Translations under genes and position numbers: made by a program
NCBI RefSeq assembly: GCF_032229285.1
Contig: NZ_CP135084.1
Coordinates: 3,038,001-3,102,000 of the forward strand
Length of the DNA: 64,000 nt
DNA from: Rheinheimera sp. MMS21-TC3
GTDB taxonomy: Bacteria > Pseudomonadota > Gammaproteobacteria > Enterobacterales > Alteromonadaceae
Direction of reading: 5' to 3'
Shown here: one piece after another, positions 20,447 through 38,470 of the stretch
Position numbering within the stretch: the stretch's first letter is position 1
Layout of the letters: each line of letters begins with the position of its first letter
Notes under the pieces: model-generated
Databases searched by the model: none
What the model was told of the DNA's origin: nothing
The model's input: only the letters and a program-made list of their open reading frames with translations

Positions 20447-20716
20447 ATGCGCTGCAAACAAACTGTCACTATAGTCAACCAACTAGGCCTACACGCCAGA
20501 GCCGCCACTAAACTCGCTCAGCTATGCCAGCAATTCAGCGCCAAAATAGAGTTAATCCAAGACAAGCAAACCGCCGACGCCAACAGTGTATTAGCCTTAC
20601 TCATGCTAGCCAGCAGTAAAGGCAAAACCCTACAAGTTGCCACCGAAGGCACAGACGCCCAACAAGCCTTAGACGCCGTAGTTAATTTAATTAACAACGG
20701 CTTTGATGAAGACTAA
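20447..20716 (+). CDS. ptsO: Phosphocarrier protein NPr of the nitrogen PTS
   Basis: An 89-aa HPr-family protein. The phosphorylation site is H16 in LGLHARAAT, and ANSVLALLMLASSKGKTLQV is the conserved helix around the HPr Ser-46 position. NPr takes phosphate from EI-Ntr (PtsP) and passes it to PtsN. Last gene of the long rpoN operon, ended by a terminator 45 bases later. Also called npr. Confidence 0.95.
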   Translation: MRCKQTVTIVNQLGLHARAATKLAQLCQQFSAKIELIQDKQTADANSVLALLMLASSKGKTLQVATEGTDAQQALDAVVNLINNGFDED

Positions 20717-26750: not shown

Positions 26751-27905
26751 TTAAAGAGCCTGTTGTAATATTTGTTTAGCTATTTGTGGCGTAATATCGC
26801 CATGCTCACCTAACTTAAGCATATTATGCTGCACTAGCTTTGCCTCTACCGCAGCAATTGCTGCAGCACCTAACTTATAATCGCTAAGTTGAGTGGCTAC
26901 ACCCATCTGTTGAAAAAATGCTTTTGTAAGGGCTATAGCCTCATCAATCACTTGCTCTTCATTGCTATAGGATAGCTGCCAGACTCTGCGGCCATATTGC
27001 AGTAGTTTTGCTCTTTTTTGTTCGCGCTGTTGCTGTAATAAAGCGGGTAATATTATAGCCAAGGTTTGGGCATGATCTAAGCCATAACAAGCTGTTAATT
27101 CATGCCCTATCATGTGTGTTGCCCAATCTTGAGGGACACCTTGGCCAATTAAGCCATTTAATGCCATAGTTGCCGCCCACATAATATTTGCCCGCACATC
27201 GTAATTTTCTGGCTCAGTTAATGCCAGTGGCCCTTGCTCGATAAGTGTTTGTAACAAGCCTTCGGCAAAGCGATCTTGCACAGCAGCATTAACCGGATAG
27301 GTTAAGTATTGCTCTATAACATGAACAAAAGCATCTACCACACCATTAGCCACTTGCTTAGTGGGCAAGCTAAAGGTCACGCTAGGATCTAAAATAGCAA
27401 ACTGGGGATAGACTAGCGGGCTAGAAAAGCCTAATTTTTGTTGTGTTTCATAACGGGTTACAACCGAGTTACCGTTACTTTCGCTACCGGTTGCCGGTAA
27501 AGTTAGTACGCAACCTAAAGGAATAGCTGATGTTACCTTAGCGCCCTCGGCTAAAATTTGCCAAGCATCACCTTCAAACACTGCTGCTGCGGCAATAAAT
27601 TTAGCGCCATCTATAACGCTGCCACCGCCTACAGCTAATAGAAAATCAATTTTTTCACGACGTACTAAATCAGCCGCTTGCATTAAAGTTTCAAAACTAG
27701 GGTTTGGCTCAATACCGGAAAACTCTAGCCAACTAAAATCACTTAATGCTTGACTAACTTGTTGATAAACTCCATTGCGCTTAATAGAGCCAGCACCATA
27801 CAGCAACAATACTTTACTGTTTTTTGGGATATTATTTGTCAGAGTGGCAATTTGCTCTTTACCAAAAATAATTTTGGTTGGGTTTTGAAAACAAAAATTA
27901 AACAT
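26751..27905 (-). CDS. yqhD: NADPH-dependent aldehyde reductase / iron-containing alcohol dehydrogenase, YqhD-like
   Basis: A 384-aa group III metal-dependent alcohol dehydrogenase, nearly collinear with E. coli YqhD (387 aa). The nucleotide-binding motif GGGSVIDGAKFIAAA and the metal-binding region, with D and H residues in ANGVVDAFVHVIEQY, MIGHELTACYGLDHAQTLAI and nearby, are present. YqhD reduces toxic short-chain aldehydes from lipid peroxidation and glyoxals using NADPH. It stands alone 72 bases from dapB; the E. coli regulator yqhC is not adjacent here. Confidence 0.92.
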   Translation of the reverse strand: MFNFCFQNPTKIIFGKEQIATLTNNIPKNSKVLLLYGAGSIKRNGVYQQVSQALSDFSWLEFSGIEPNPSFETLMQAADLVRREKIDFLLAVGGGSVIDGAKFIAAAAVFEGDAWQILAEGAKVTSAIPLGCVLTLPATGSESNGNSVVTRYETQQKLGFSSPLVYPQFAILDPSVTFSLPTKQVANGVVDAFVHVIEQYLTYPVNAAVQDRFAEGLLQTLIEQGPLALTEPENYDVRANIMWAATMALNGLIGQGVPQDWATHMIGHELTACYGLDHAQTLAIILPALLQQQREQKRAKLLQYGRRVWQLSYSNEEQVIDEAIALTKAFFQQMGVATQLSDYKLGAAAIAAVEAKLVQHNMLKLGEHGDITPQIAKQILQQAL

Positions 27906-28065
27906 GTCATTACACCATTACGTAAATTGCTTAGGATCGGAACAGAACCTCTATAGCTACCTTTATAGGATCAACATAAAGCAATTCAAGCGCAGCTGGG
28001 AGCTTACTGCGCTAAACAACAACCATCATCAGTTGATTAGCTGCAACTAGAGCATAAACTCCCTA

Positions 28066-29931
28066 TCAATCAGCAAATAGCTGTTTAACTTTTTGCTCTA
28101 AACCAGCTGCAGTTACGCTAGCTGCTGCCACTGTTGGCGCCGCTTCAAGCTCCACCACTGACCAAAAGCGACCTTTAAACTTAAAGGCGCCATTACCTTG
28201 ATGGCTAAAAAATGATCCCCATAAGCCCTTTAATGCCATAGGCACAACAGGCACTGGGCTTTCAGTCAAAATACGCTCTATACCTGGACGAAAGCTATCT
28301 ATGGTGCCGTCTTTTGTTAAGCGGCCTTCAGGAAAAATACAAACTAAGTGCCCGTCGGCTAATGCCTGTTTAATCTTAGCAAAAGCAGCTTCATGTACTT
28401 GCTCATTTTTCTGCTTGCTGCAAATAGGAATGGTTTTAGCAGCTTTAAATAATTTATTTACCAAAGGTAAGTCATAAATAGCTTTTTCCATCACAAAACG
28501 AATGGGCCTTCTAACTGCACCTGCAATCACTAAGGCATCAACATAGCTAATATGATTAGCCACTAACACCGCAGCACCTTGTTCAGGAATATGCTCTAAG
28601 CCTTTTTTTTGTACCCTATACATAGTGTGACTTAGTAAATATATAACAAAACGCAACACAAACTCTGGCATCTGAGAGTACACATATAAGGCCACTGCTA
28701 TATTCATTAAAGCTAAGACTAAAAAGTACTGACTAATTGACAGCCCTAGTACCGATAAAAACAAGATACCAGCCAAAGCGCTAGCAACCATAAATAAAGC
28801 ATTAAAAATATTATTTGCCGCTATAACCCGCGCTCGTTGATGTGACTGGGCACGTTGTTGTAATAACGCATACAAAGGCACGATAAATAAACCGCCAAAC
28901 ACACCAATTAAACTTAATGCCATTAGCAACCACCAACCATAAGCAGTAGCTAAAAACTGACTTAAATTTATTTCTGCTGTAGGGGCAAACGATGGACTAG
29001 TTAAATACAAGGCGATGCCAAAGATAGTTAACCCAACCGAGCCAATAGGTACTATTCCAAGCTCTACTTTATCGCCAGATAAACGCTCACAAAGCATAGA
29101 GCCAATACCCACGCCCAATGAAAATGCAACTAATAGCGCAGTTACCACTGTATTATCACCGCCTAGCACTGTTTTAGTATAGTTGGGAAATTGGGTTAAA
29201 TAACTAGCGCCTAAAAACCAAAACCAGCTAATGGCCATAATAGATAAATATAAATCTCTATTGGTGTAACTAATACTTATTGCTTTTTTGGTTTGCTGCC
29301 AAGGTGCAAAACTAAATTTTTGAGCCGACTCTACTTTACCCACTTTTGGTATATAGCGGCTAACTAGGTAACCTATAACTGAAAACAATACGACTACGGT
29401 ACCTATCCACAGCTCTGCCTGATTAAAGCCAACAATAAGACCACCTAATACAGTTCCCAATAAAATTGCCACAAAAGTGCCCATCTCTACCCAAGCATTG
29501 CCCGCTAATAATTCTTTAGGTGTTAGTAGTTGCGGTAATATTGCATATTTAACGGGGCCAAAAAAAGCCGACTGAGTACCCATTAAAAATAAAATAGCCA
29601 ACAGTACTAAATATTGCTGAAAATAAAATGCTAGCGCAGCCGCCAGCATCAAACCGATTTCTATCAGCTTTAAACCTCGGATTAATGCTGTTTTACAACT
29701 AGCATCGGCCAAAGCGCCTGCAGTAGCAGAGAACAATAAAAACGGTAAGATAAATAAGCCAGCCGCCAGATTCATTGTGATATCAATCGACCAGGGCAAG
29801 GCATTAGCTGCGGTAAAAGCCAGAGCTAACATTAAGGCATTTTTAAATACATTGTCATTAAAAGCGCCTAGCGCTTGGGTTAAAAAGAACGGCATAAACC
29901 GCATGCTACCTATAATTTTCAACCCTGACAT
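28066..29931 (-). CDS. Fusion of an LplT-like MFS transporter with a PlsC-type acyltransferase
   Basis: A 621-aa protein. Residues about 1-410 form an MFS permease with about 12 helices, starting FFLTQALGAFNDNVFKNALM as in lysophospholipid flippases (LplT). Residues about 430-621 are a glycerolipid acyltransferase with NHISYVDALV (459-468; H460 and D465 catalytic) and FPEGR (533-537). Related proteins carry an additional acyl-ACP synthetase domain; it is absent here. A likely role is to bring lysophospholipids inward and re-acylate them, an inference from the two domains. Confidence 0.85.
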   Translation of the reverse strand: MSGLKIIGSMRFMPFFLTQALGAFNDNVFKNALMLALAFTAANALPWSIDITMNLAAGLFILPFLLFSATAGALADASCKTALIRGLKLIEIGLMLAAALAFYFQQYLVLLAILFLMGTQSAFFGPVKYAILPQLLTPKELLAGNAWVEMGTFVAILLGTVLGGLIVGFNQAELWIGTVVVLFSVIGYLVSRYIPKVGKVESAQKFSFAPWQQTKKAISISYTNRDLYLSIMAISWFWFLGASYLTQFPNYTKTVLGGDNTVVTALLVAFSLGVGIGSMLCERLSGDKVELGIVPIGSVGLTIFGIALYLTSPSFAPTAEINLSQFLATAYGWWLLMALSLIGVFGGLFIVPLYALLQQRAQSHQRARVIAANNIFNALFMVASALAGILFLSVLGLSISQYFLVLALMNIAVALYVYSQMPEFVLRFVIYLLSHTMYRVQKKGLEHIPEQGAAVLVANHISYVDALVIAGAVRRPIRFVMEKAIYDLPLVNKLFKAAKTIPICSKQKNEQVHEAAFAKIKQALADGHLVCIFPEGRLTKDGTIDSFRPGIERILTESPVPVVPMALKGLWGSFFSHQGNGAFKFKGRFWSVVELEAAPTVAAASVTAAGLEQKVKQLFAD

Positions 29932-30153
29932 TGCCGCTCCATTAATTATTAGTATCTGTTTATAAAGCCAACAGCATAATAAAAAGCCATTAACTTCACC
30001 AGCAAATAGATTTACTGACTAAAACAGTTAATATGATGATAACTAATTTAGCCTTGCGCTTAGCAACTAAGATTGACAGGAAGTCTAGCCGTCTATATAT
30101 TTGCAACTTATGTTTGCACGTTGCAGTAATGAATCATTTTTGTAGGTACTATT

Positions 30154-31473
30154 ATGTCTTCAGTTTCACTAGCCCCCATTGGTGCTAAACGCTCATTACT
30201 GCCGTTATTGTTTTTTGTGATGCTATTTCTGGGCACTGGCTTGTATTTACAAAGCCAAGATGTGGCTTATGCGTTTTACCAACTACCAGGTCATGTTGCT
30301 ATTATTCCAGCTTTAATTTTAGCGGTTTACTTACACCGAGCACCATTAACAGAGTCTATTGACGTTATGATCAAAGGTGCAAGCAATCATAATATTATTA
30401 CTATGTGTATTATTTATTTGCTTGCTGGTGCCTTTGCTAGTGTAGCTACTGCAACGGGAGGCGTAGATGCGGCCGTTAATGCTGGTTTAAGTTTAGTCTC
30501 GGCCAGCTGGTTGTTACCGGGCTTATTTGTTATTGCTGCTGTTATTGCTACCGCTATGGGTACTTCAATGGGCACTATTGCTGCTTTAGCACCTATTGCA
30601 GTGAATTTAGCAAGCCAAGCTAATTTAGAGCCTGCCTTAGTAGCAGGCGTACTGCTAAGCGGCGCCATGTTTGGTGATAATTTATCTATTATTTCTGATA
30701 CCACTATTGCCTCCACCCGCACCCAAGGTGCCAAGATGGCAGACAAGTTTAAAGAAAATATTAAAATTGCCCTACCTGCCGCAATTATCACCTTAGCGTT
30801 GTATATTTTTTTATCATCTGATGGCGCTGTTATTACGCACGAAGCCGTTAATTGGACCGGCGTACTGCCCTATGCTGCTATTTTAATTTTAGCTATTTTG
30901 GGCCTAAATGTCTTTGTAGTGCTATTACTGGGTGTGGTGCTAGCCGCCGCCCAAGGGGCATTTTTTGCCAATTATAATATAGCTAACTTAGGTCAAGATA
31001 TTGCCAGCGGTTTTGCCAATGTCCAAGAAATTTTTATATTAGCTATGTTAGTAAGTGCTTTAAGTGAGTTTATTAAACAACAAGGTGGCTTAGAGTGGAT
31101 TGCCATAAAAATTCAATCAGCAGCCAGCAAGCTTAAACTAGCTGGCAATAAAGCTCAGCAACTTGCCATAGCAACCTTAGCCTTTAGCAGCAATTTGTGT
31201 ATTGCTAATAATACTGTTGCTATAGTATTAACCGGTGACCTTAGTAAAACCCTAGCCAAACAACACCATATTAGCCCTAAACGCAGTGCAAGCTTATTGG
31301 ATATCTTTGCTTGTGTTAGCCAAGGCTTAGTGCCTTATGGCGCACAAGCCTTATTGTTAGGCGCTAGCTTTGGTTTATCACCTTGGCAAGTGGTAACAAA
31401 AAGCTATTATTGTATGATTTTATTAATAGTGGCTATTAGTGTAGTGATATTGCGCAGTAGCAAGCATAGCTAA
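30154..31473 (+). CDS. NhaC-family Na+/H+ antiporter
   Basis: A 439-aa integral membrane protein with 10-12 predicted helices. The GAMFGDNLSIISDTTIASTRTQGAKMADKFKEN stretch, cited here only as a landmark around residues 170-202, is the NhaC-family signature. It probably exchanges Na+ for H+, or an organic acid couple as in malate/lactate relatives. A 222-base spacer separates it from the divergent acyltransferase fusion. It converges with the 31.5-34.3 kb cassette without a visible terminator. Confidence 0.85.
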   Translation: MSSVSLAPIGAKRSLLPLLFFVMLFLGTGLYLQSQDVAYAFYQLPGHVAIIPALILAVYLHRAPLTESIDVMIKGASNHNIITMCIIYLLAGAFASVATATGGVDAAVNAGLSLVSASWLLPGLFVIAAVIATAMGTSMGTIAALAPIAVNLASQANLEPALVAGVLLSGAMFGDNLSIISDTTIASTRTQGAKMADKFKENIKIALPAAIITLALYIFLSSDGAVITHEAVNWTGVLPYAAILILAILGLNVFVVLLLGVVLAAAQGAFFANYNIANLGQDIASGFANVQEIFILAMLVSALSEFIKQQGGLEWIAIKIQSAASKLKLAGNKAQQLAIATLAFSSNLCIANNTVAIVLTGDLSKTLAKQHHISPKRSASLLDIFACVSQGLVPYGAQALLLGASFGLSPWQVVTKSYYCMILLIVAISVVILRSSKHS

Positions 31474-31503
31474 GTTAAAAACAGTAATTATTAGCCACAC
31501 TTA

Positions 31504-32574
31504 TCAGTATACTTTAGGCTGTTTATTTTTTTTAAACATTAACAGCAGTTGGTTTATCGGTTTAGCAGCAAAATGGTATAGCAAAATATACCATTTTAAC
31601 TTTAAAAAGTGGCCTCGCACAAACCAGATTTGTTTAGCAAAAGAGTACTTGTCTGGTTCAGCCGCTAGCACTTTTAACATTAATTTACAGACAAACTTAT
31701 TAGGCGCTAAAGTATTTCGTTGCTGTAAATACGCGCTGGCTTCTTGGTTAGAAAATACCTTGCTTATAACAAAGGCAGCGTTAGATACTGCTGCTTCAGC
31801 ACCAATCAACTTAGCTTCTTGTTGTAGCGAAGCTAAACCACTTTGCTCCATTACATGATTAAACAATTGATTAATATCAATAATATCTTTAACTGTACGA
31901 TGCGTTTCTTCTTGAAAAAACAAATGCACTGCAGCATGAATAAAGAGATGCTCGATACAAGGCAGATACAAATTGGAACCGGAGATCTGCACTGCCCGCT
32001 TAAAAAATGGTGCTATATTCAGTTTTAATGCTGATGCTGTTGGATATATTTGATGGTGCAAATCTATAACTGTATGGCGCTCAAAATGTTGAACTGGCGG
32101 GCTTTGATGCGACCACTTCATATAGTAATGGCGATCATAATCTGATATTTGCGGTTCATAAAAGCCCTGAAAGAACAGCTTACTGCGCATAGTTAAAAAA
32201 GATTTTTCTGGTACTAAAATATCAATATCACTAAATAATCGACCATAGCTCATCGGTAACGCTAAAGCCCTATAAGCGGCGCCTTTAAGTAACAAACAAG
32301 GAAAATCTAGCTCTGCGGCTAAATCCTCTAATAACAATAACTCATAAAATAAGCTCTGCTGCTGTTTATCAGCATACTTAGCACCAGCATTTAAGTGCTT
32401 AGCTACTACTGCTGGCGGCTCTAAACTCGGGTTATGTAAATGCAGTTGGTAGTAGGCTTTAGCTAATAAACCATAACGGCGTAAATCGACTAATAACTGC
32501 CGCCAATGCTCAGGCTTTGCTTGCTGATAAAAGGCTTGCGTATCTCGAAAGAAGTCTAATACTATAAAACTCAT
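31504..32574 (-). CDS. Nucleotidyltransferase-fold protein (NTP_transf_5 family) of the HprK-related cassette
   Basis: A 356-aa cytoplasmic protein. LLLKGAAYRALAL (95-107) followed by GRLFSDIDILV (111-121), with D116 and D118 as the likely metal-binding pair, and the later IDLHHQIYP and EHLFIHAAVHLFF blocks, place it in the uncharacterised nucleotidyltransferase family often found with HprK-related kinases, PqqD-like proteins and lasso-peptide genes. Its substrate is unknown. The ATG overlaps the kinase stop (ATGA), so the two are translationally coupled. The C-terminus is basic and aromatic-rich. Last gene of the cassette. Confidence 0.75.
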   Translation of the reverse strand: MSFIVLDFFRDTQAFYQQAKPEHWRQLLVDLRRYGLLAKAYYQLHLHNPSLEPPAVVAKHLNAGAKYADKQQQSLFYELLLLEDLAAELDFPCLLLKGAAYRALALPMSYGRLFSDIDILVPEKSFLTMRSKLFFQGFYEPQISDYDRHYYMKWSHQSPPVQHFERHTVIDLHHQIYPTASALKLNIAPFFKRAVQISGSNLYLPCIEHLFIHAAVHLFFQEETHRTVKDIIDINQLFNHVMEQSGLASLQQEAKLIGAEAAVSNAAFVISKVFSNQEASAYLQQRNTLAPNKFVCKLMLKVLAAEPDKYSFAKQIWFVRGHFLKLKWYILLYHFAAKPINQLLLMFKKNKQPKVY

Positions 32575-33428
32575 ATTAGCTCGTCCAACAAAGCTAAAGC
32601 ATGATCAGAGTCAGCATAAATTAATTCAAATGCCTGGGTTGAATTAACCAGTTGACTTAAAGCATTGAAGCCTTCTACCCCTAACACAGAATAATTAAAA
32701 GAGTTTATTGCTAATTGCATAAAACTATTACTGGGCGTTAAACGATTAAAGGTTGTTGATTCAGCTCCAGCTTGGTACAGCGGAAAAATGATATGAGTTG
32801 CTCTACAGGCTTGATTAGCTTGCTGCCAGCTTAATTCACTGGGTAATAGGTAACCTATAGTGCCTTTAATGGTATTAGTAATATTAAACAGTACCGGCGC
32901 ATCTGCATAGCGCTGTTTTATTACCTGTAAAGAATGATTTTTTAAACTAATAGGCCTCACACTAGGTAGCACGGCTCCGCTTAAAGTATCAATAAAGCAG
33001 GTTTCATCAGATAATAGCCGCCACCCTTCTAGCATTAGCATAGCCGCTAAGGTACTTTTACCTGAACCTGGTGCAGCTGGCATTACTAACGTCACAGCAC
33101 CTTTTTGCAGCACAGCAGCATGGATAGATAAATAATGATGCTGAAAAGAGGCCACACTCCAATTAAATGCCCATTCAAAAATGGCCGGCAGATGCGCTGG
33201 CTCTGACATTCTAAAATGCTCTGATGCAGAACCAACATAAAACTCAGCCCCTAATAAGCGCCGACGCTTTTTAATGTTTAAATCAAAGTCATAAAACTGT
33301 TGTAGATCAAAAGGCTGAAACACTTCTGCAGGGTATAGCTGTTTTATAGCATGATAAAGCGCACTAGATTGATTAGTAACAGCAAGCGAGAAAGGGTAAG
33401 TATGTAAGGAAAAATTATATGCTGTCAT
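32571..33428 (-). CDS. HprK-related kinase A (HPr-rel-A system)
   Basis: A 285-aa protein resembling the C-terminal kinase half of HPr kinase. It has a P-loop PAAPGSGKST (117-126), a following acidic SDET (140-143), RPISLKNHSL in the middle and the family-typical NSFNYSVLGVEGFNAL near the end. These landmarks match the family I know as HprK-related kinase A, whose substrate is not established. No HPr of the canonical serine-phosphorylated type is adjacent. The ATG abuts AGG with poor spacing, but an in-frame stop upstream fixes this start. Confidence 0.85.
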   Translation of the reverse strand: MTAYNFSLHTYPFSLAVTNQSSALYHAIKQLYPAEVFQPFDLQQFYDFDLNIKKRRRLLGAEFYVGSASEHFRMSEPAHLPAIFEWAFNWSVASFQHHYLSIHAAVLQKGAVTLVMPAAPGSGKSTLAAMLMLEGWRLLSDETCFIDTLSGAVLPSVRPISLKNHSLQVIKQRYADAPVLFNITNTIKGTIGYLLPSELSWQQANQACRATHIIFPLYQAGAESTTFNRLTPSNSFMQLAINSFNYSVLGVEGFNALSQLVNSTQAFELIYADSDHALALLDELI

Positions 33429-33502
33429 CCTGACTTATTTAACTATATAACAGGCTAACGAGTGGTTAAGCCTATTAGTTATTAACTGTTCTAGATCAGT
33501 AT

Positions 33503-33688
33503 CTAGGGCTGCGACTCCTGCTCTAATGTAGTTTCATGACTAACAAGGTTAAACCTTAATCGAAACTCATCAGGCTCGTTATCTTCAACAAAAGTTAACG
33601 CTTGTTCAATATAACCTGATTGTTCAACATTAGCCAGCGCTAGCCATTTGGCATAATCCATTGCGTAAATAGCTGTTTCAGCTTGCAT
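33503..33688 (-). CDS. Small acidic protein of unknown function in the HprK-related cassette
   Basis: A 61-aa protein I do not recognise. It is strongly acidic (12 Asp/Glu against 3 Lys/Arg), has no Cys, signal or membrane segment, and is predicted to be a helix (about 5-34) followed by a short beta-like segment (EFRLRFNLV). A TAAGG site lies 7 bases before the ATG. It sits between the Tat protein and the kinase, the slot a PqqD-like peptide chaperone would fill in related cassettes, but it shows no PqqD motif. Good ribosome site and operon position favour a real gene. Confidence 0.6.
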   Translation of the reverse strand: MQAETAIYAMDYAKWLALANVEQSGYIEQALTFVEDNEPDEFRLRFNLVSHETTLEQESQP

Positions 33689-33720
33689 ACTTTAGCCTTA
33701 GGTTTTGAAGTTAAGCAGAG

Positions 33721-34287
33721 TTATCTACCGCCTCTGACATAAAAAGCGACTAAATTCTTTAAGTCCTTCCTCTTTTGCCCTGTTGTATTTTGATAGGCAT
33801 TTACAAAGTCTTCTGGTGCTGGAAAATTAGACCAACGGCCATAATAATACTTAAGGTAAAGAGCATATAAAAAGCAATAAGCAATATTTCTATCAAAATA
33901 GCTATCACTATAATTTACTATTAAGCTACTTATTGGCATACGAAGATTTTTGTTAAATATCTGACTAAAAGTAGTATGCTCATTAACGCACACACCTCTA
34001 AAGTAATAAGCACGCCTTCTTGAGTTAAAGCAGCCATTCCAGTAGCTAAAGTAGTCTATAGCACAAACATCAGGAATGTCAGTTTCTACGCACTCTTTAC
34101 CAGTATTTGCAGTAACTGAGGCTATTTGTGATGCTGTAGCACTTAAACCACAATTTAAACTTGAACTGCCCCAAGTAGCACGGCTTTTAAAAGACATTAA
34201 CAACGGCACCGAAGCAGTCGCCGTAGTTAGAAACTTACGGCGGCTAGTTTGAGTCGACTTCACTTCCTTATTATCAATAGGTTCCAT
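33721..34287 (-). CDS. Tat-exported Cys-containing protein, likely substrate of the HprK-related cassette
   Basis: A 188-aa protein. The twin-arginine signal SRRKFLTTATASVPLLMSF (15-33) ends near SRATWGSS, as in the small Tat proteins I associate with HprK-related kinase loci. The mature part has six Cys (46, 66, 75, 86, 100, 138), a FSYWNGC block (80-86), TFSQIF (106-111) and a Tyr-rich helix (FLYALYLKYYYG) before a basic tail. No enzyme motif is seen. An AGGA site lies 7 bases before the ATG. It heads the four-gene run (33-base, 74-base and overlapping junctions). Export and modification are inferred. Confidence 0.7.
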   Translation of the reverse strand: MEPIDNKEVKSTQTSRRKFLTTATASVPLLMSFKSRATWGSSSLNCGLSATASQIASVTANTGKECVETDIPDVCAIDYFSYWNGCFNSRRRAYYFRGVCVNEHTTFSQIFNKNLRMPISSLIVNYSDSYFDRNIAYCFLYALYLKYYYGRWSNFPAPEDFVNAYQNTTGQKRKDLKNLVAFYVRGGR

Positions 34288-34381
34288 AATTTCATCCTAA
34301 AGCTTACAGCATACTAGTAGCTATTTATTACATATAACCGTTAACATGCACAATTTATACCAGCAGCATAACTTACTGAAT

Positions 34382-34414
34382 ACAATGGCAGTACTTGCTT
34401 TATACTGCCATTGT
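34382..34414. terminator. Hairpin between the LoiP-like gene and the Tat-protein cassette
   Basis: ACAATGGCAGTA (34382-34393) and TACTGCCATTGT (34403-34414) pair perfectly over 12 bp with a 9-base loop. No clean T run follows on the minus strand, so it may be a weak terminator, an mRNA-stabilising hairpin or an operator for the cassette. Confidence 0.5.
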
Positions 34415-34444
34415 TATTCATTTTTGTAAAAAAAACTGACAGCT

Positions 34445-35245
34445 TTACAAGCGACATTGTGGTAGTGCAGTAGCTGCCTTACGTTCATTATAAGTTCGCA
34501 TTGCATTTGGCATTTTTTCTCGCAATGACGTTATACGATTTTGTGGCAATGGGTGGGTAGATAAAATTTCTAGTGTCCCTCCGCTACCCGCTGCAGCCAT
34601 ATTTTGCCATAAGTTAACTGCTTGCCTTGGCTCAAACCCGGCTTTAGCCATTAAATCTAAGCCCATAATATCGGCTTCTGTTTCGTGTGCTCGGCTAAAG
34701 GGTAAAGTTACGCCTATTTGTGCCCCTAAACCAAATGCCGTCATTAATTCGTTTTGATATTGCACTTGGTAGGCTTTCATAGCCGTGCTGCTTAAGGTTA
34801 GCGCAGTTTGTACAAACTGGTTAGTTGATAAACGCTCATTGCTATGGCCTGCCATAACGTGGGCGATTTCATGGCCAACAACAGCTGCTAACTGAGATTG
34901 ATTTTCCGCTACCTTTAATAAGCCAGTATAGATACCAATTTTACCACCAGGTAAGGCAAAAGCATTAACCTGTTCACTATCAAATACTACCACTTCCCAA
35001 TTCTGCCGCGCATACTCAGCAGGTGTCACATTGATTAATGCGCCAGTGATACACTGCACATATTGGATTGTATTACGATCTTTTGAAATTGGCGTTTCAG
35101 CTTTTAACTGCTCAAAAGTTTGCGCACCCATTTTACTTAGTTCGGCATCATTAAATAACATAATTTGGTTGCGCCCAGTAGGCGATTGCGCACATGCTGC
35201 CAACACTAGTGCTGTTGCGGCAACAAGCGCCGATGCTTTTAACAT
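34445..35245 (-). CDS. loiP: M48-family metalloprotease lipoprotein, LoiP/YggG-like
   Basis: A 266-aa lipoprotein with the lipobox LVLAAC and lipidated C18, followed by a peptidase M48 domain. Zinc motif HEIAH is at 125-129, the third ligand Glu is in HETEADIMGLDLM, and a conserved STHPLPQNRI block lies near the end. E. coli LoiP (YggG) is an outer-membrane protease induced by low osmolarity. I use the ATG at 35245 with AAGGA 7 bases upstream; a TTG six codons earlier is less likely. Transcribed alone. Confidence 0.85.
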   Translation of the reverse strand: MLKASALVAATALVLAACAQSPTGRNQIMLFNDAELSKMGAQTFEQLKAETPISKDRNTIQYVQCITGALINVTPAEYARQNWEVVVFDSEQVNAFALPGGKIGIYTGLLKVAENQSQLAAVVGHEIAHVMAGHSNERLSTNQFVQTALTLSSTAMKAYQVQYQNELMTAFGLGAQIGVTLPFSRAHETEADIMGLDLMAKAGFEPRQAVNLWQNMAAAGSGGTLEILSTHPLPQNRITSLREKMPNAMRTYNERKAATALPQCRL

Positions 35246-35316
35246 TGTAATATCCTTATGCAAGTTATTTATGACTATAAAAACTTAATTATAGGTAATT
35301 TTATCTGCTACTGAAT

Positions 35317-35342
35317 AAAAAACCACCCGCAGGTGGTTTTTT
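35317..35342 (-). terminator. Terminator after dnaK-dnaJ
   Basis: AAAAAACCACC (35317-35327) and GGTGGTTTTTT (35332-35342) pair over 11 bp with a 4-base loop. T runs on both strands; on the minus strand it ends the dnaJ transcript 12 bases after the stop. Confidence 0.92.
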
Positions 35343-35353
35343 ATTTTAATGGT

Positions 35354-36493
35354 CTAACTAGTTAAGTCATCAAAAAACTTTTTTACACCATCAAAAAAGC
35401 CTTTTGATTTGGGCCTATGCTTAGCTTCGGCATCACCGGCCATGCTATCACCTAGCTGTCGTAATAACTCTTTTTGTTTATCACTTAGGTTAACTGGCGT
35501 TTCAATGACGACTTTACAAACTAAGTCGCCCACAGCTCCACCACGGACAGACTGCACACCTTTTCCTCGCAAACGGAACATTTTTTCTGTTTGCGTTTCA
35601 GCTGGCACTTTCAACTTAACACGGCCATCTAAGGTTGGTACATCAATCTCTCCGCCTAAGGCTGCTGTAGTGAAGCTAAGCGGGACATCACAATATAAAT
35701 TGCTGCCTTCGCGTACAAAAATTGCGTGCTCTTTTACATGTACTTGTACATATAAATCACCCGCTGGAGCGCCATGCATACCAGCTTCACCTTCACCTGT
35801 TAAGCGAATGCGGTCTCCGGTATCTACTCCTGCAGGTATTTTAACCGAGAGGGTTTTAGTCTTTTCAATCCGGCCATCACCATGACACTTTTTACAAGGA
35901 TCTGAAATAACCTTACCGCGGCCACTACAAGTTGGACAAGTTTGCTGCACAGCAAAGAAGCCTTGACGCATAGTTACTTGGCCGGCCCCATTACAGGTTG
36001 AACATGATTTAGCCGATGTGCCTTTTTTAGCGCCAGAACCATCACAGATATCACAGCTGGCCATAGTAGGTATTTTAATGTCAACCGACTTACCACGAAC
36101 CGCTTCTTCTAGGCTTAACTCTAAATTGTAACGTAAATCAGATCCGCGTTGGGCTCTGGATTGGCCACGACGACCACCGCCACCGAAAATATCACCAAAC
36201 ACATCACCAAAAATATCGCCAAAATCAGCATTTCCGCCGCCGCCAAAACCACCGCCGCCACGATTAGGATCGACACCGTCATGACCAAAGCGATCATAGG
36301 CAGCCCGCTTTTGCTCATCCGACAATATCTCATAAGCTTCTTGGACTTCTTTAAACTGCTCTTCCATGGCCTTATCACCCTTAGTTCTGTCAGGGTGTAA
36401 CTTCATAGCCAGCCGTCTATAAGCCTTTTTGATATCTTTTTCGTCGGCGTCTTTTGCGACACCTAATACTTCATAATAGTCACGCTTCGACAT
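35354..36493 (-). CDS. dnaJ: Chaperone DnaJ (Hsp40)
   Basis: A 379-aa co-chaperone that delivers unfolded proteins to DnaK and stimulates its ATPase. In order: J domain with HPD (33-35), Gly/Phe-rich linker (about 75-115, GGGGFGGGG), a zinc domain with four CxxCxGxG-type repeats starting at CDICDGSG, then the substrate-binding C-terminal domains. Co-transcribed with dnaK from a sigma32 promoter; the 60-base gap holds no terminator. Confidence 0.98.
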
Positions 36494-36553
36494 AGCTTAG
36501 TGCTAACTTCTTATGTTGAGGGGCTGAGTAAACTCAGCCCAGTTAAACTTAAC

Positions 36554-38470
36554 TTACTTTTTATCATCTTCTTTAACTTCTTCAAACTCGGCATCAACGA
36601 CGTCGTCATTTGAATCAGCTTGCTGACTTGCACCAGCACCTTGCTCAGCTTGTGCTTTAGCTTGCGCAGCTTCCATCAGCTTTTGTGATGCTTGCATTAA
36701 AGCCTGAGACTTCTCGTCAATAGCTTCTTTATCACCGTCTTTTAACACAGCTTCTAAATCTGCAATAGCGCTCTCAATAGCTGTTTTATCATCGGCAGCT
36801 AAATTGTCGCCAGCTTCTTCTAACTGCTTACGAGTTGCATGCACCATAGCATCAGCTTGGTTACGTGTTTGCACTAACTCTTCAAACTTTTTATCGTCTT
36901 CAGCATGTGCTTCAGCGTCACGTACCATTGCTTCGATTTCTTCATCCGTTAAGCCTGAGTTAGCTTTAATGGTGATCTTCTGTTCTTTACCTGTATCTTT
37001 ATCTTTTGCCGATACATGTAAGATACCATCAGCATCTAAGTCGAAAGTTACTTCGATTTGTGGCTCGCCACGACGTCCTGCGCGAATACCTTCTAAGTTA
37101 AACTGACCCAATGATTTGTTATCTGATGAACGTTTACGCTCACCTTGTAACACATGGATAGTTACCGCAGATTGATTATCTTCAGCTGTTGAGAACACTT
37201 GCGACTTCTTAGTTGGAATAGTCGTATTTTTCTCAATTAAAGCTGTCATTACGCTACCCATAGTTTCAATACCTAAGGATAAAGGCGTTACGTCTAATAA
37301 TAATACGTCTGTTACATCACCTGATAATACCGCACCTTGAATAGCCGCGCCTACTGCAACTGCTTCGTCAGGGTTAACGTCTTTGCGTGGCTCTTTACCA
37401 AAGAACTCTGTAACGACCTCTTGCACTTTAGGCATACGGGTTTGACCACCAACTAAAATAATATCGTTGATGTCAGCAACCGTTAAATCTGCGTCTTTTA
37501 ACGCTTGTTTTAATGGCTCTAAAGTACGCTGAATTAAATCATCAAGTAATGATTCTAATTTAGCCCGTGTTACTTTAATGTTTAAGTGTTTTGGACCTGA
37601 TGCATCAGCTGTGATGTATGGCAGGTTCACTTCTGTTTGCGATGCTGAAGATAATTCAATTTTCGCTTTTTCTGCAGACTCTTTTAAACGCTGCATAGCT
37701 AGCGGGTCATTTTTTAAATCAACACCTTGCTCTTTTTTGAACTCTTCAACTAAATAATTGATTAAACGGTTATCAAAGTCTTCACCACCTAAGTGAGTAT
37801 CACCATTAGTCGCTAGTACTTCAAAAGTTTGCTCGCCGTCTAAGTCATCAATTTCAATAATTGAAATATCGAAAGTACCACCACCTAAGTCATAAACTGC
37901 AACTTTAGTGTCGCCTTTCTTTTTATCCATACCGTAAGCTAACGCAGCAGCTGTTGGCTCGTTAATAATACGCTTAACATCTAGACCCGCAATACGGCCG
38001 GCATCTTTAGTAGCTTGACGTTGCGCATCGTTAAAGTAAGCAGGTACCGTAATAACAGCTGCTGTTACCGCTTCACCTAAATAGTCTTCAGCGGTCTTTT
38101 TCATCTTTTTCAATACTTCTGCTGATATTTGCGGAGCAGCTAATTTTTTACCTTTAACTTCAACCCAAGCATCACCATTATCAGCCTTAACTATTGAGAA
38201 AGGCATGATTTTAATATCACGTTGTACTTCTTCGTCTTCAAAACGACGACCTATTAAACGCTTAATTGCGAATAAAGTGTTTTTAGGGTTGGTTACTGCT
38301 TGGCGTTTCGCCGGCTGACCTACTAAAACTTCACCGTCTTCGGCATAAGCGATAATTGAAGGAGTGGTACGTGTACCCTCAGCGTTTTCTAGTACCCGAG
38401 GTTTATCACCATCTAATACTGCTACACAAGAGTTTGTTGTACCTAAATCTATACCAATAATTCTACCCAT
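36554..38470 (-). CDS. dnaK: Chaperone DnaK (Hsp70)
   Basis: A 638-aa Hsp70. ATPase-domain signatures [14 protein letters not shown] (N-terminus), [15 protein letters not shown] and [13 protein letters not shown] are present, followed by the linker [15 protein letters not shown], the peptide-binding domain, the helical lid and the EEVKEDDKK acidic tail. It acts in protein folding and in feedback control of sigma32. First gene of dnaK-dnaJ; grpE is about 4 kb away in the hrcA operon. Confidence 0.98.

Follow-up and report, generated by a model that had tools for sequence, protein, structure and literature searches.

The genome of Rheinheimera sp. MMS21-TC3 contains, within a 64,000-nucleotide stretch of contig NZ_CP135084.1 (positions 3,038,001 to 3,102,000; hereafter the window, with coordinates counted from its first letter), a compact cassette in which an HprK-related kinase A and a nucleotidyltransferase-like protein are encoded beside a 61 aa acidic protein and a predicted twin-arginine translocation (Tat) substrate. 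The question raised by this arrangement is what the kinase and the transferase modify, since for the HPr-rel-A system, to which the kinase family belongs, we found no target in print in the open-licence literature, which all our literature searches covered. Comparative analysis reveals that the four genes belong together as a conserved, widespread and little-studied unit, and that the conserved feature of its exported member is a serine motif, and not its cysteine content.

The four open reading frames (ORFs) are co-directional on the minus strand, with junctions of 32 bp (Tat gene to 61 aa gene) and 74 bp (61 aa gene to kinase) and a 4-bp overlap between kinase and transferase. An earlier reading of this DNA, made from the sequence alone (the sequence-only reading), had described this layout correctly, together with the P-loop of the kinase, the D116/D118 pair of the transferase and the acidic character of the small protein. 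The features referred to below are the following:

33721-34287, minus strand: exported Tat protein, likely substrate or precursor (188 aa ORF; its family lies beside the kinase in 85/85 kinase genomes, partly by construction)
34168-34287, minus strand: N-terminal tail and twin-arginine signal peptide of that protein, residues 1-40 (twin-arginine segment TSRRKFL, a basic residue at position 36, likely cleavage site at W39-G40)
34117-34143, minus strand: S-x3-S-x3-S motif (S49, S53, S57), proposed modification site, from conservation and shuffling
33503-33688, minus strand: 61 aa acidic protein in the PqqD/RRE slot, a possible minimal or degenerate RiPP recognition element (RRE; RiPP, ribosomally synthesized and post-translationally modified peptide), from slot position, hhalign and a structure model
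32571-33428, minus strand: HprK-related kinase A, 285 aa (H103, P-loop 117-126, D141-E142; TIGR04352)
31504-32574, minus strand: nucleotidyltransferase-like protein, 356 aa (K97-G98, R112, D116, D118, D171-x-H173; PF14907)

Conservation of the cassette and of its serine motif

Across 196 genomes from the taxonomic family of the window genome, a profile search for TIGR04352 returned matches in 100, 85 of them over the cut-off. Neighbourhoods were compared for 85 further over-cut-off loci and three weaker ones (L087-L089), the window bringing the over-cut-off loci to 86. The genes do recur together, as the sequence-only reading had proposed and had set down as its own refuting check: in 84 of these 86 loci the genes for Tat protein, kinase and transferase lie side by side in the same orientation, every one of the 86 has a transferase behind its kinase, and a transferase homologue is found in 89/89 loci with L087-L089 included. 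At the two loci where the Tat gene is not adjacent, L086 (genome G035) and L039 (genome G030), whole-genome search recovered it, intact for L039 and fragmented for L086. The kinase of L086 (contig C34) likewise appears as two matches in different frames beside the pieces of the Tat-family gene, and this cassette is apparently decaying. Searched genome-wide, the Tat-family profile matched in all 85 kinase genomes, with the match starting 779-1379 bp from the kinase, a presence that is partly by construction, since these 196 genomes also supplied the sequences for the profile. Because it was drawn from kinase loci, the informative half of this result is the near absence of the family from the 111 genomes without an over-cut-off kinase, where it was found in three: a partial match at a contig edge in G156 and weak matches in G169 and G181.

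The same arrangement extends well beyond these genomes. A second set comprised 80 loci from named genomes, retained out of 324 confirmed, in Rheinheimera, Arsukibacterium, Massilia, Methylomonas, Methylobacter, Thiobacillus, Nitrotoga and other genera; a handful of these loci come from genera that also occur in the first set, and some strains are possibly identical. The transferase is present in 80/80, a match in the PqqD slot in 63/80, and 67/80 have a leader-like ORF immediately upstream, at least 700 bp of upstream sequence being available in 77/80. Eight more profile matches (E < 1e-3) in the 80 loci fall beyond the position limits or on the opposite strand. L211 and L216 have two leader-like ORFs each, off the usual upstream place, and are possible multi-precursor loci. 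Across the phylum, HprK-related kinase A exceeds its cut-off in 61 of 398 sampled genomes, from which 40 kinase loci (L149-L188) were taken as a distant set. The cassette also occurs on plasmids: both records examined, out of 10 found, carry it (Vibrio alfacsensis and Sphingomonas parapaucimobilis), with the first gene annotated as 'hypothetical protein'. The Vibrio alfacsensis precursor has CSITSCMSGNAS behind its twin-arginine signal, and its plasmid holds an unannotated 84 aa intervening ORF, PqqD-like by eye and missing from the PLSDB table. No polysaccharide gene is annotated within ~12 kb of the cassette on this plasmid (L297).

The N-terminus of the exported protein combines the features of a Tat-type signal, namely an SRRxFLK-like motif, a short h-region and a basic c-region, as judged by column counts and by eye. 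Among 84 aligned family members, R16 is conserved in 83, R17 in 84, F19 in 68, L20 in 63 and W39 in 69, and position 36, just ahead of the cleavage site placed by eye, is K or R in 67/84; a basic residue near the end of a Tat signal serves in Sec avoidance. TatC is encoded in the same genome. The window protein stays under the cut-off of every TAT-signal profile (best PF10399, E 0.027, 14.3 bits against 24), and TIGR01409 matches 9/84 relatives at E ≤ 0.01. No Pfam or NCBIfam cut-off is reached by the window protein, neither database has a family for its body, and its 84 relatives give only Tat-signal and a few stray matches there.

Together with the signal, the stretch immediately beyond it makes up the conserved portion of an otherwise poorly conserved protein. 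Besides Met1, the only columns conserved in at least 90% of the 84 members are the twin arginine and three serines, S49 (82), S53 (80) and S57 (76). The exact S-x3-S-x3-S spacing, 20-55 residues past the twin arginine, occurs in 74/84 members against 8.4 expected when the same stretch is shuffled, and in 9/281 background windows. Identity to seven relatives of 188-202 aa is 88-100% over residues 41-57, 28-38% over residues 58-110 and 42-51% over residues 111-188. The motif recurs in the second set in 46/67 upstream ORFs against 4.7 expected, a count biased towards the motif because these ORFs were picked with a motif-containing profile at a permissive E ≤ 1; with candidates chosen by a twin-arginine pattern that left the motif out, where a match to the first-set Tat profile raised the rank and the wrong ORF was sometimes taken, it was found in 46/75. 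Most of the 21 misses among the 67 retain a shorter SGxxS-like piece by eye.

The sequence-only reading had singled this protein out as a Cys-rich twin-arginine protein. Its R16-R17 pair and six cysteines stand, and the emphasis on cysteine does not: only C46 (58/84) and C66 (51/84) are widely retained, the other four of the six being unconserved. C46 was also rejected as a lipoprotein cysteine by eye, its distance from the signal varying and the lipobox being lost. The C-terminal part is modelled as a small, mostly helical domain (residues 71-188, block-mean predicted local distance difference test, pLDDT, of 66-91), with ~30-35% mean pairwise identity across 19 relatives and no useful PDB match to the structure.

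A single serine motif does not account for all precursors. Among 29 twin-arginine precursors picked from the 40 distant loci, 23 have a C-terminal [ST]C[WFY]xS[FLI] motif, beginning 6-18 residues from the C-terminus, and only one of these 23 also has S-x3-S-x3-S. This second motif may be an alternative modification site, a suggestion made by analogy, because lasso-peptide HprK homologues modify a C-terminal serine (PMC8498205).

The two enzymes and the small protein between them and the Tat gene

The kinase scores 251.2 bits against TIGR04352 (curated cut-off 200). Its P-loop PAAPGSGKST is conserved, and H103, G121, G123, K124, S125, T126, D141 and E142 are invariant in 85 aligned kinases. Alignment with a ten-sequence HprK profile using hhalign (probability 84%, E 7.9e-6) places H103 and D141 over the His and the ADD motif of HprK, with the P-loops aligned. 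The window kinase has no PF07475 match, a search of the genome for classical HprK (PF07475) returned nothing at E ≤ 0.001, a single-sequence PDB search gave no match at E ≤ 1, and sequence search reached a solved HprK at E 0.25 only. The kinase is, judging from these sequence comparisons, a distant HprK relative. The three weaker loci, L087, L088 and L089, encode a longer HprK-like kinase of 389-396 aa that scores below the cut-off of TIGR04352. A transferase-like gene lies downstream of it but no Tat-family gene was found, and these kinases are perhaps a sister subtype.

The nucleotidyltransferase-like protein matches PF14907 with 133.9 bits (cut-off 31.2). K97, G98, R112, D118, H156, H173, H217 and H334 are invariant in 85 aligned transferases, D116 is retained in 84/85 and D171 in 83/85. 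No solved structure matched at E ≤ 1, and no published substrate for PF14907 was found in the literature searched. On this pattern of residues, both the kinase and the transferase look active.

The 61 aa protein (12 D/E, 3 K/R, isoelectric point 4.1) occupies the place that a PqqD-like gene fills in relatives. It matches no NCBIfam family at E ≤ 10, TIGR04353 (HPr-rel-A PqqD peptide chaperone) included, and passes no Pfam cut-off either; hhalign against the family of the PqqD slot gave E 1.9e-4 with a probability of 48%, and its structure model shows a helix and three strands (pLDDT 68). An intervening short ORF of at least 55 aa is present in 75 loci, and TIGR04353 matched 15 of the 54 of these that were scanned at E ≤ 0.1, missing 39. 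The small protein is thus possibly a minimal or degenerate RRE of putative PqqD kinship.

Set against HPr-rel-A as described (TIGR04352, TIGR04353), the cassette agrees in the over-cut-off kinase, the adjacent transferase and the PqqD gene that relatives have in the slot, but differs in that its own small gene matches no PqqD model and in having an exported serine-motif partner without a Pfam or NCBIfam family.

The kinase had also been described as lacking its usual HPr partner. This did not hold for the window as a whole: an HPr homologue (PF00381, 91.6 bits), which we take to be NPr/ptsO, is encoded at 20447-20716 on the plus strand, after the sigma-54 and RapZ genes, though ~11 kb from the cassette and outside it. 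It has a serine in the region that corresponds to Ser46 of HPr.

Association with XrtA-type exopolysaccharide genes

Exosortases matched in 151 of the 196 family genomes, 108 of them with scores of at least 196 bits (the next listed being 166). We refer to these high-scoring exosortases as XrtA-like, the typing itself having been done by TIGR03109 in the window genome, whose exosortase is XrtA (292.6 bits). A high-scoring exosortase is present in 84/85 kinase genomes against 24/111 others, neither gene being present in 87 (Fisher p 7e-32, with kinship not corrected for). The single exception, G120, is a 78% complete genome with split exosortase matches. Kinase and exosortase lie on the same contig in 56/85 genomes, and 46 of these 56 pairs are at most 80 kb apart.

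In 19/40 distant loci, stp1, stp2 or the TIGR03108 amidotransferase was matched by phmmer within ~5 kb. In L150, where NCBIfam confirmed all three of these genes, the cassette is flanked by stp2 (TIGR03088) on one side and the amidotransferase (TIGR03108) on the other. First-set family loci have no such genes within ~5 kb, save for one weak edge match (L044). In the window genome the polysaccharide locus (L189, G000:C1:1386000-1405900) is 1.68 Mb from the cassette, and stp2 and the amidotransferase are neighbours there with no cassette between them. The XrtA/PEP-CTERM locus shares with the cassette its position in L150 and a phyletic link, but in the window genome it is a separate locus. Strict dependence on an exosortase was rejected, 16/40 distant kinase genomes being without an exosortase match; since in 13 of the 16 phmmer did match XrtA-type polysaccharide genes within the fetched stretch, it is the polysaccharide locus, and not sorting, to which the cassette is tied. 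PEP-CTERM families gave no match for the window protein or, at E ≤ 0.01, for its 84 aligned relatives. No publication joining exosortase with HPr kinase or PqqD was found in the literature searched.

Proposed modification of the exported protein and its alternatives

The closest described counterpart is the linear polyphosphorylated peptide (LPP) system of Bacillota. In these clusters (PMC13381572), the HprK-like LppK adds multiple phosphates to Ser3 just past the leader, an RRE presents the precursor, precursors of 35-200 aa have a conserved N-terminus and a variable C-terminus, the clusters often lie within capsular polysaccharide loci, and deletion of lppN caused no change in detectable product. 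The cassette resembles this system in the type of its kinase (HprK-like) and of its nucleotidyltransferase, in a precursor of the same size range with conserved N-terminus and variable C-terminus, in a serine just past the leader and in its polysaccharide link. It differs in its Pseudomonadota host, in an RRE that is truncated or absent, and in a Tat-like leader lacking the YxxPxVLxHQxIxFETxxS motif by eye; nor is there an SpI-like peptidase (LppS) or an MsbA-like exporter (LppD) among its six flanking genes, which extend from 26751 to 38470 and encode an Fe-alcohol dehydrogenase, an MFS/acyltransferase, an Na+/H+ antiporter, an M48 peptidase, DnaJ and Hsp70. By analogy, then, the cassette would work like the LPP system yet is not a member of it, because it lacks the dedicated peptidase and exporter as well as the leader motif. 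Paeninodin- and pseudomycoidin-type lasso peptides offer a second parallel, with an HprK-like kinase and nucleotidyltransferase pair acting on a serine of a ribosomal peptide; in pseudomycoidin the pair yields phosphoserine plus hexoses (PMC8498205). Unlike the lasso systems, the four cassette genes and six flanking genes include no macrolactam cyclase or B2 peptidase, and the candidate serines lie past the leader instead of at the C-terminus.

Gene linkage, signal-peptide features, the serine motif, catalytic-residue conservation and the exopolysaccharide association are directly supported, and from them we infer each chemical step, what the 61 aa protein does, by which route the precursor leaves the cytoplasm in the living cell and how the product functions at the surface. 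The protein encoded at 33721-34287 would be the precursor, its N-terminal region doubling as Tat signal and leader. This leader would be bound in most relatives by a protein of the PqqD/RRE type, whose slot is occupied here by the 61 aa protein. The kinase would phosphorylate one or more of S49, S53 and S57, just past the predicted cleavage site, and the PF14907 enzyme would then build on the phosphoserine with a sugar-phosphate, a nucleotide or a glycosyl group; that the kinase should act on these serines and the transferase extend the phosphate is proposed because of the analogy with LPP. The folded, modified protein would be exported by Tat, signal peptidase would free the modified N-terminus, and the product would act at the cell surface together with XrtA-type exopolysaccharide.

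Taken whole, this reading, in which the two enzymes modify a ribosomal protein that Tat then exports to a role at the surface, seems to us somewhat better than an even bet. Its parts differ in strength. The Tat protein is probably the target, the serine motif is a reasonably likely site of modification, and a role at the surface or in the matrix is slightly favoured, while action of the transferase on phosphoserine is evenly balanced. We would regard as speculative and rather improbable the further step in which the serine triad is (poly)phosphorylated and extended with sugar or sugar-phosphate, so that the N-terminus forms a covalent joint between protein and exopolysaccharide, in effect a phosphodiester-linked matrix proteoglycan.

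The polysaccharide association itself invites another interpretation, in which the two enzymes have as their substrate some sugar, lipid or nucleotide belonging to the exopolysaccharide pathway, and the Tat protein is a co-transcribed, unmodified partner such as a matrix protein or periplasmic factor. The strength of the link to polysaccharide genes, the lack of a published PF14907 substrate in the literature searched and the fact that modification of the Tat protein is something we infer all favour it. Near-invariant serines in an otherwise variable protein are hard to explain without modification, however, the slot of relatives holds a peptide-binding PqqD-type gene (the TIGR04353 matches at E ≤ 0.1 in 15/54), and the HprK-like precedents target a peptide serine (PMC8498205, PMC13381572); we consider this interpretation unlikely, if worth keeping in view. 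A little less probable still is that the Tat protein merely carries a short modified N-terminal peptide that is released as a RiPP-type product or signal. The RiPP-like set of RRE slot, kinase and transferase, the joint conservation of leader and motif, and the LPP and lasso precedents would fit such a carrier, and the M48 peptidase gene (34445-35263, minus strand), on the same strand 157 bp upstream of the Tat gene, is by position a candidate partner; but the C-terminal part is long, predicted to be folded and retains its ~30-35% identity among 19 relatives, and the six flanking genes include no ABC exporter or lasso-type peptidase.

Two further explanations were considered. Were the kinase an HPr/NPr kinase that phosphorylates the HPr homologue of the window and so controls metabolism, its distant relationship to HprK and the serine at the Ser46 region of that homologue (20447-20716) would be accounted for, but the homologue lies outside the cassette, in which the kinase is constantly accompanied by the Tat protein and the transferase, and we give this very little weight. 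Kinase and nucleotidyltransferase-like genes with small partners are known in anti-phage and toxin-antitoxin modules. A defence function of this kind was rejected as unsupported and is the least probable of all: PADLOC matched the kinase alone, at E 0.06, and none of the other three proteins, PHROGs gave no match at E ≤ 0.1 for any of the four, and the exported partner and polysaccharide link also speak against it.

Modification of the Tat protein before export, which the sequence-only reading had put forward, is thus the best-supported reading, with S49/S53/S57 added as the likely site and the chemistry still conditional. The expectation that such a system would be new biology has to be narrowed, as HprK-like kinases paired with nucleotidyltransferases acting on ribosomal peptides are already described in PMC8498205 and PMC13381572. 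What appears to be new, again by analogy with these systems, is a tailoring of the HprK/nucleotidyltransferase type tied to a Tat-type exported protein and to exopolysaccharide; the serine-motif site, the exopolysaccharide link and the HPr homologue in the window all go beyond the sequence-only reading. The question left by the HPr-rel-A annotation is narrowed accordingly, with a target family, a serine motif, an export route and a process, exopolysaccharide, now named as candidates. If the proposal is true, HprK-type peptide phosphorylation would take in, besides small peptides, folded proteins that Gram-negative bacteria export through Tat; it may also explain how matrix proteins are tethered to slime polysaccharide, with a bearing on biofilms.

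In the cassette region, Rfam returned no RNA family at gathering score, and promoter-like sites (11 against 10.3 in shuffles) and terminator-like sites (5 against 3.0) were left unused. A protein similar to the M48 peptidase is also encoded upstream, by eye, in Rheinheimera hassiensis (L192).

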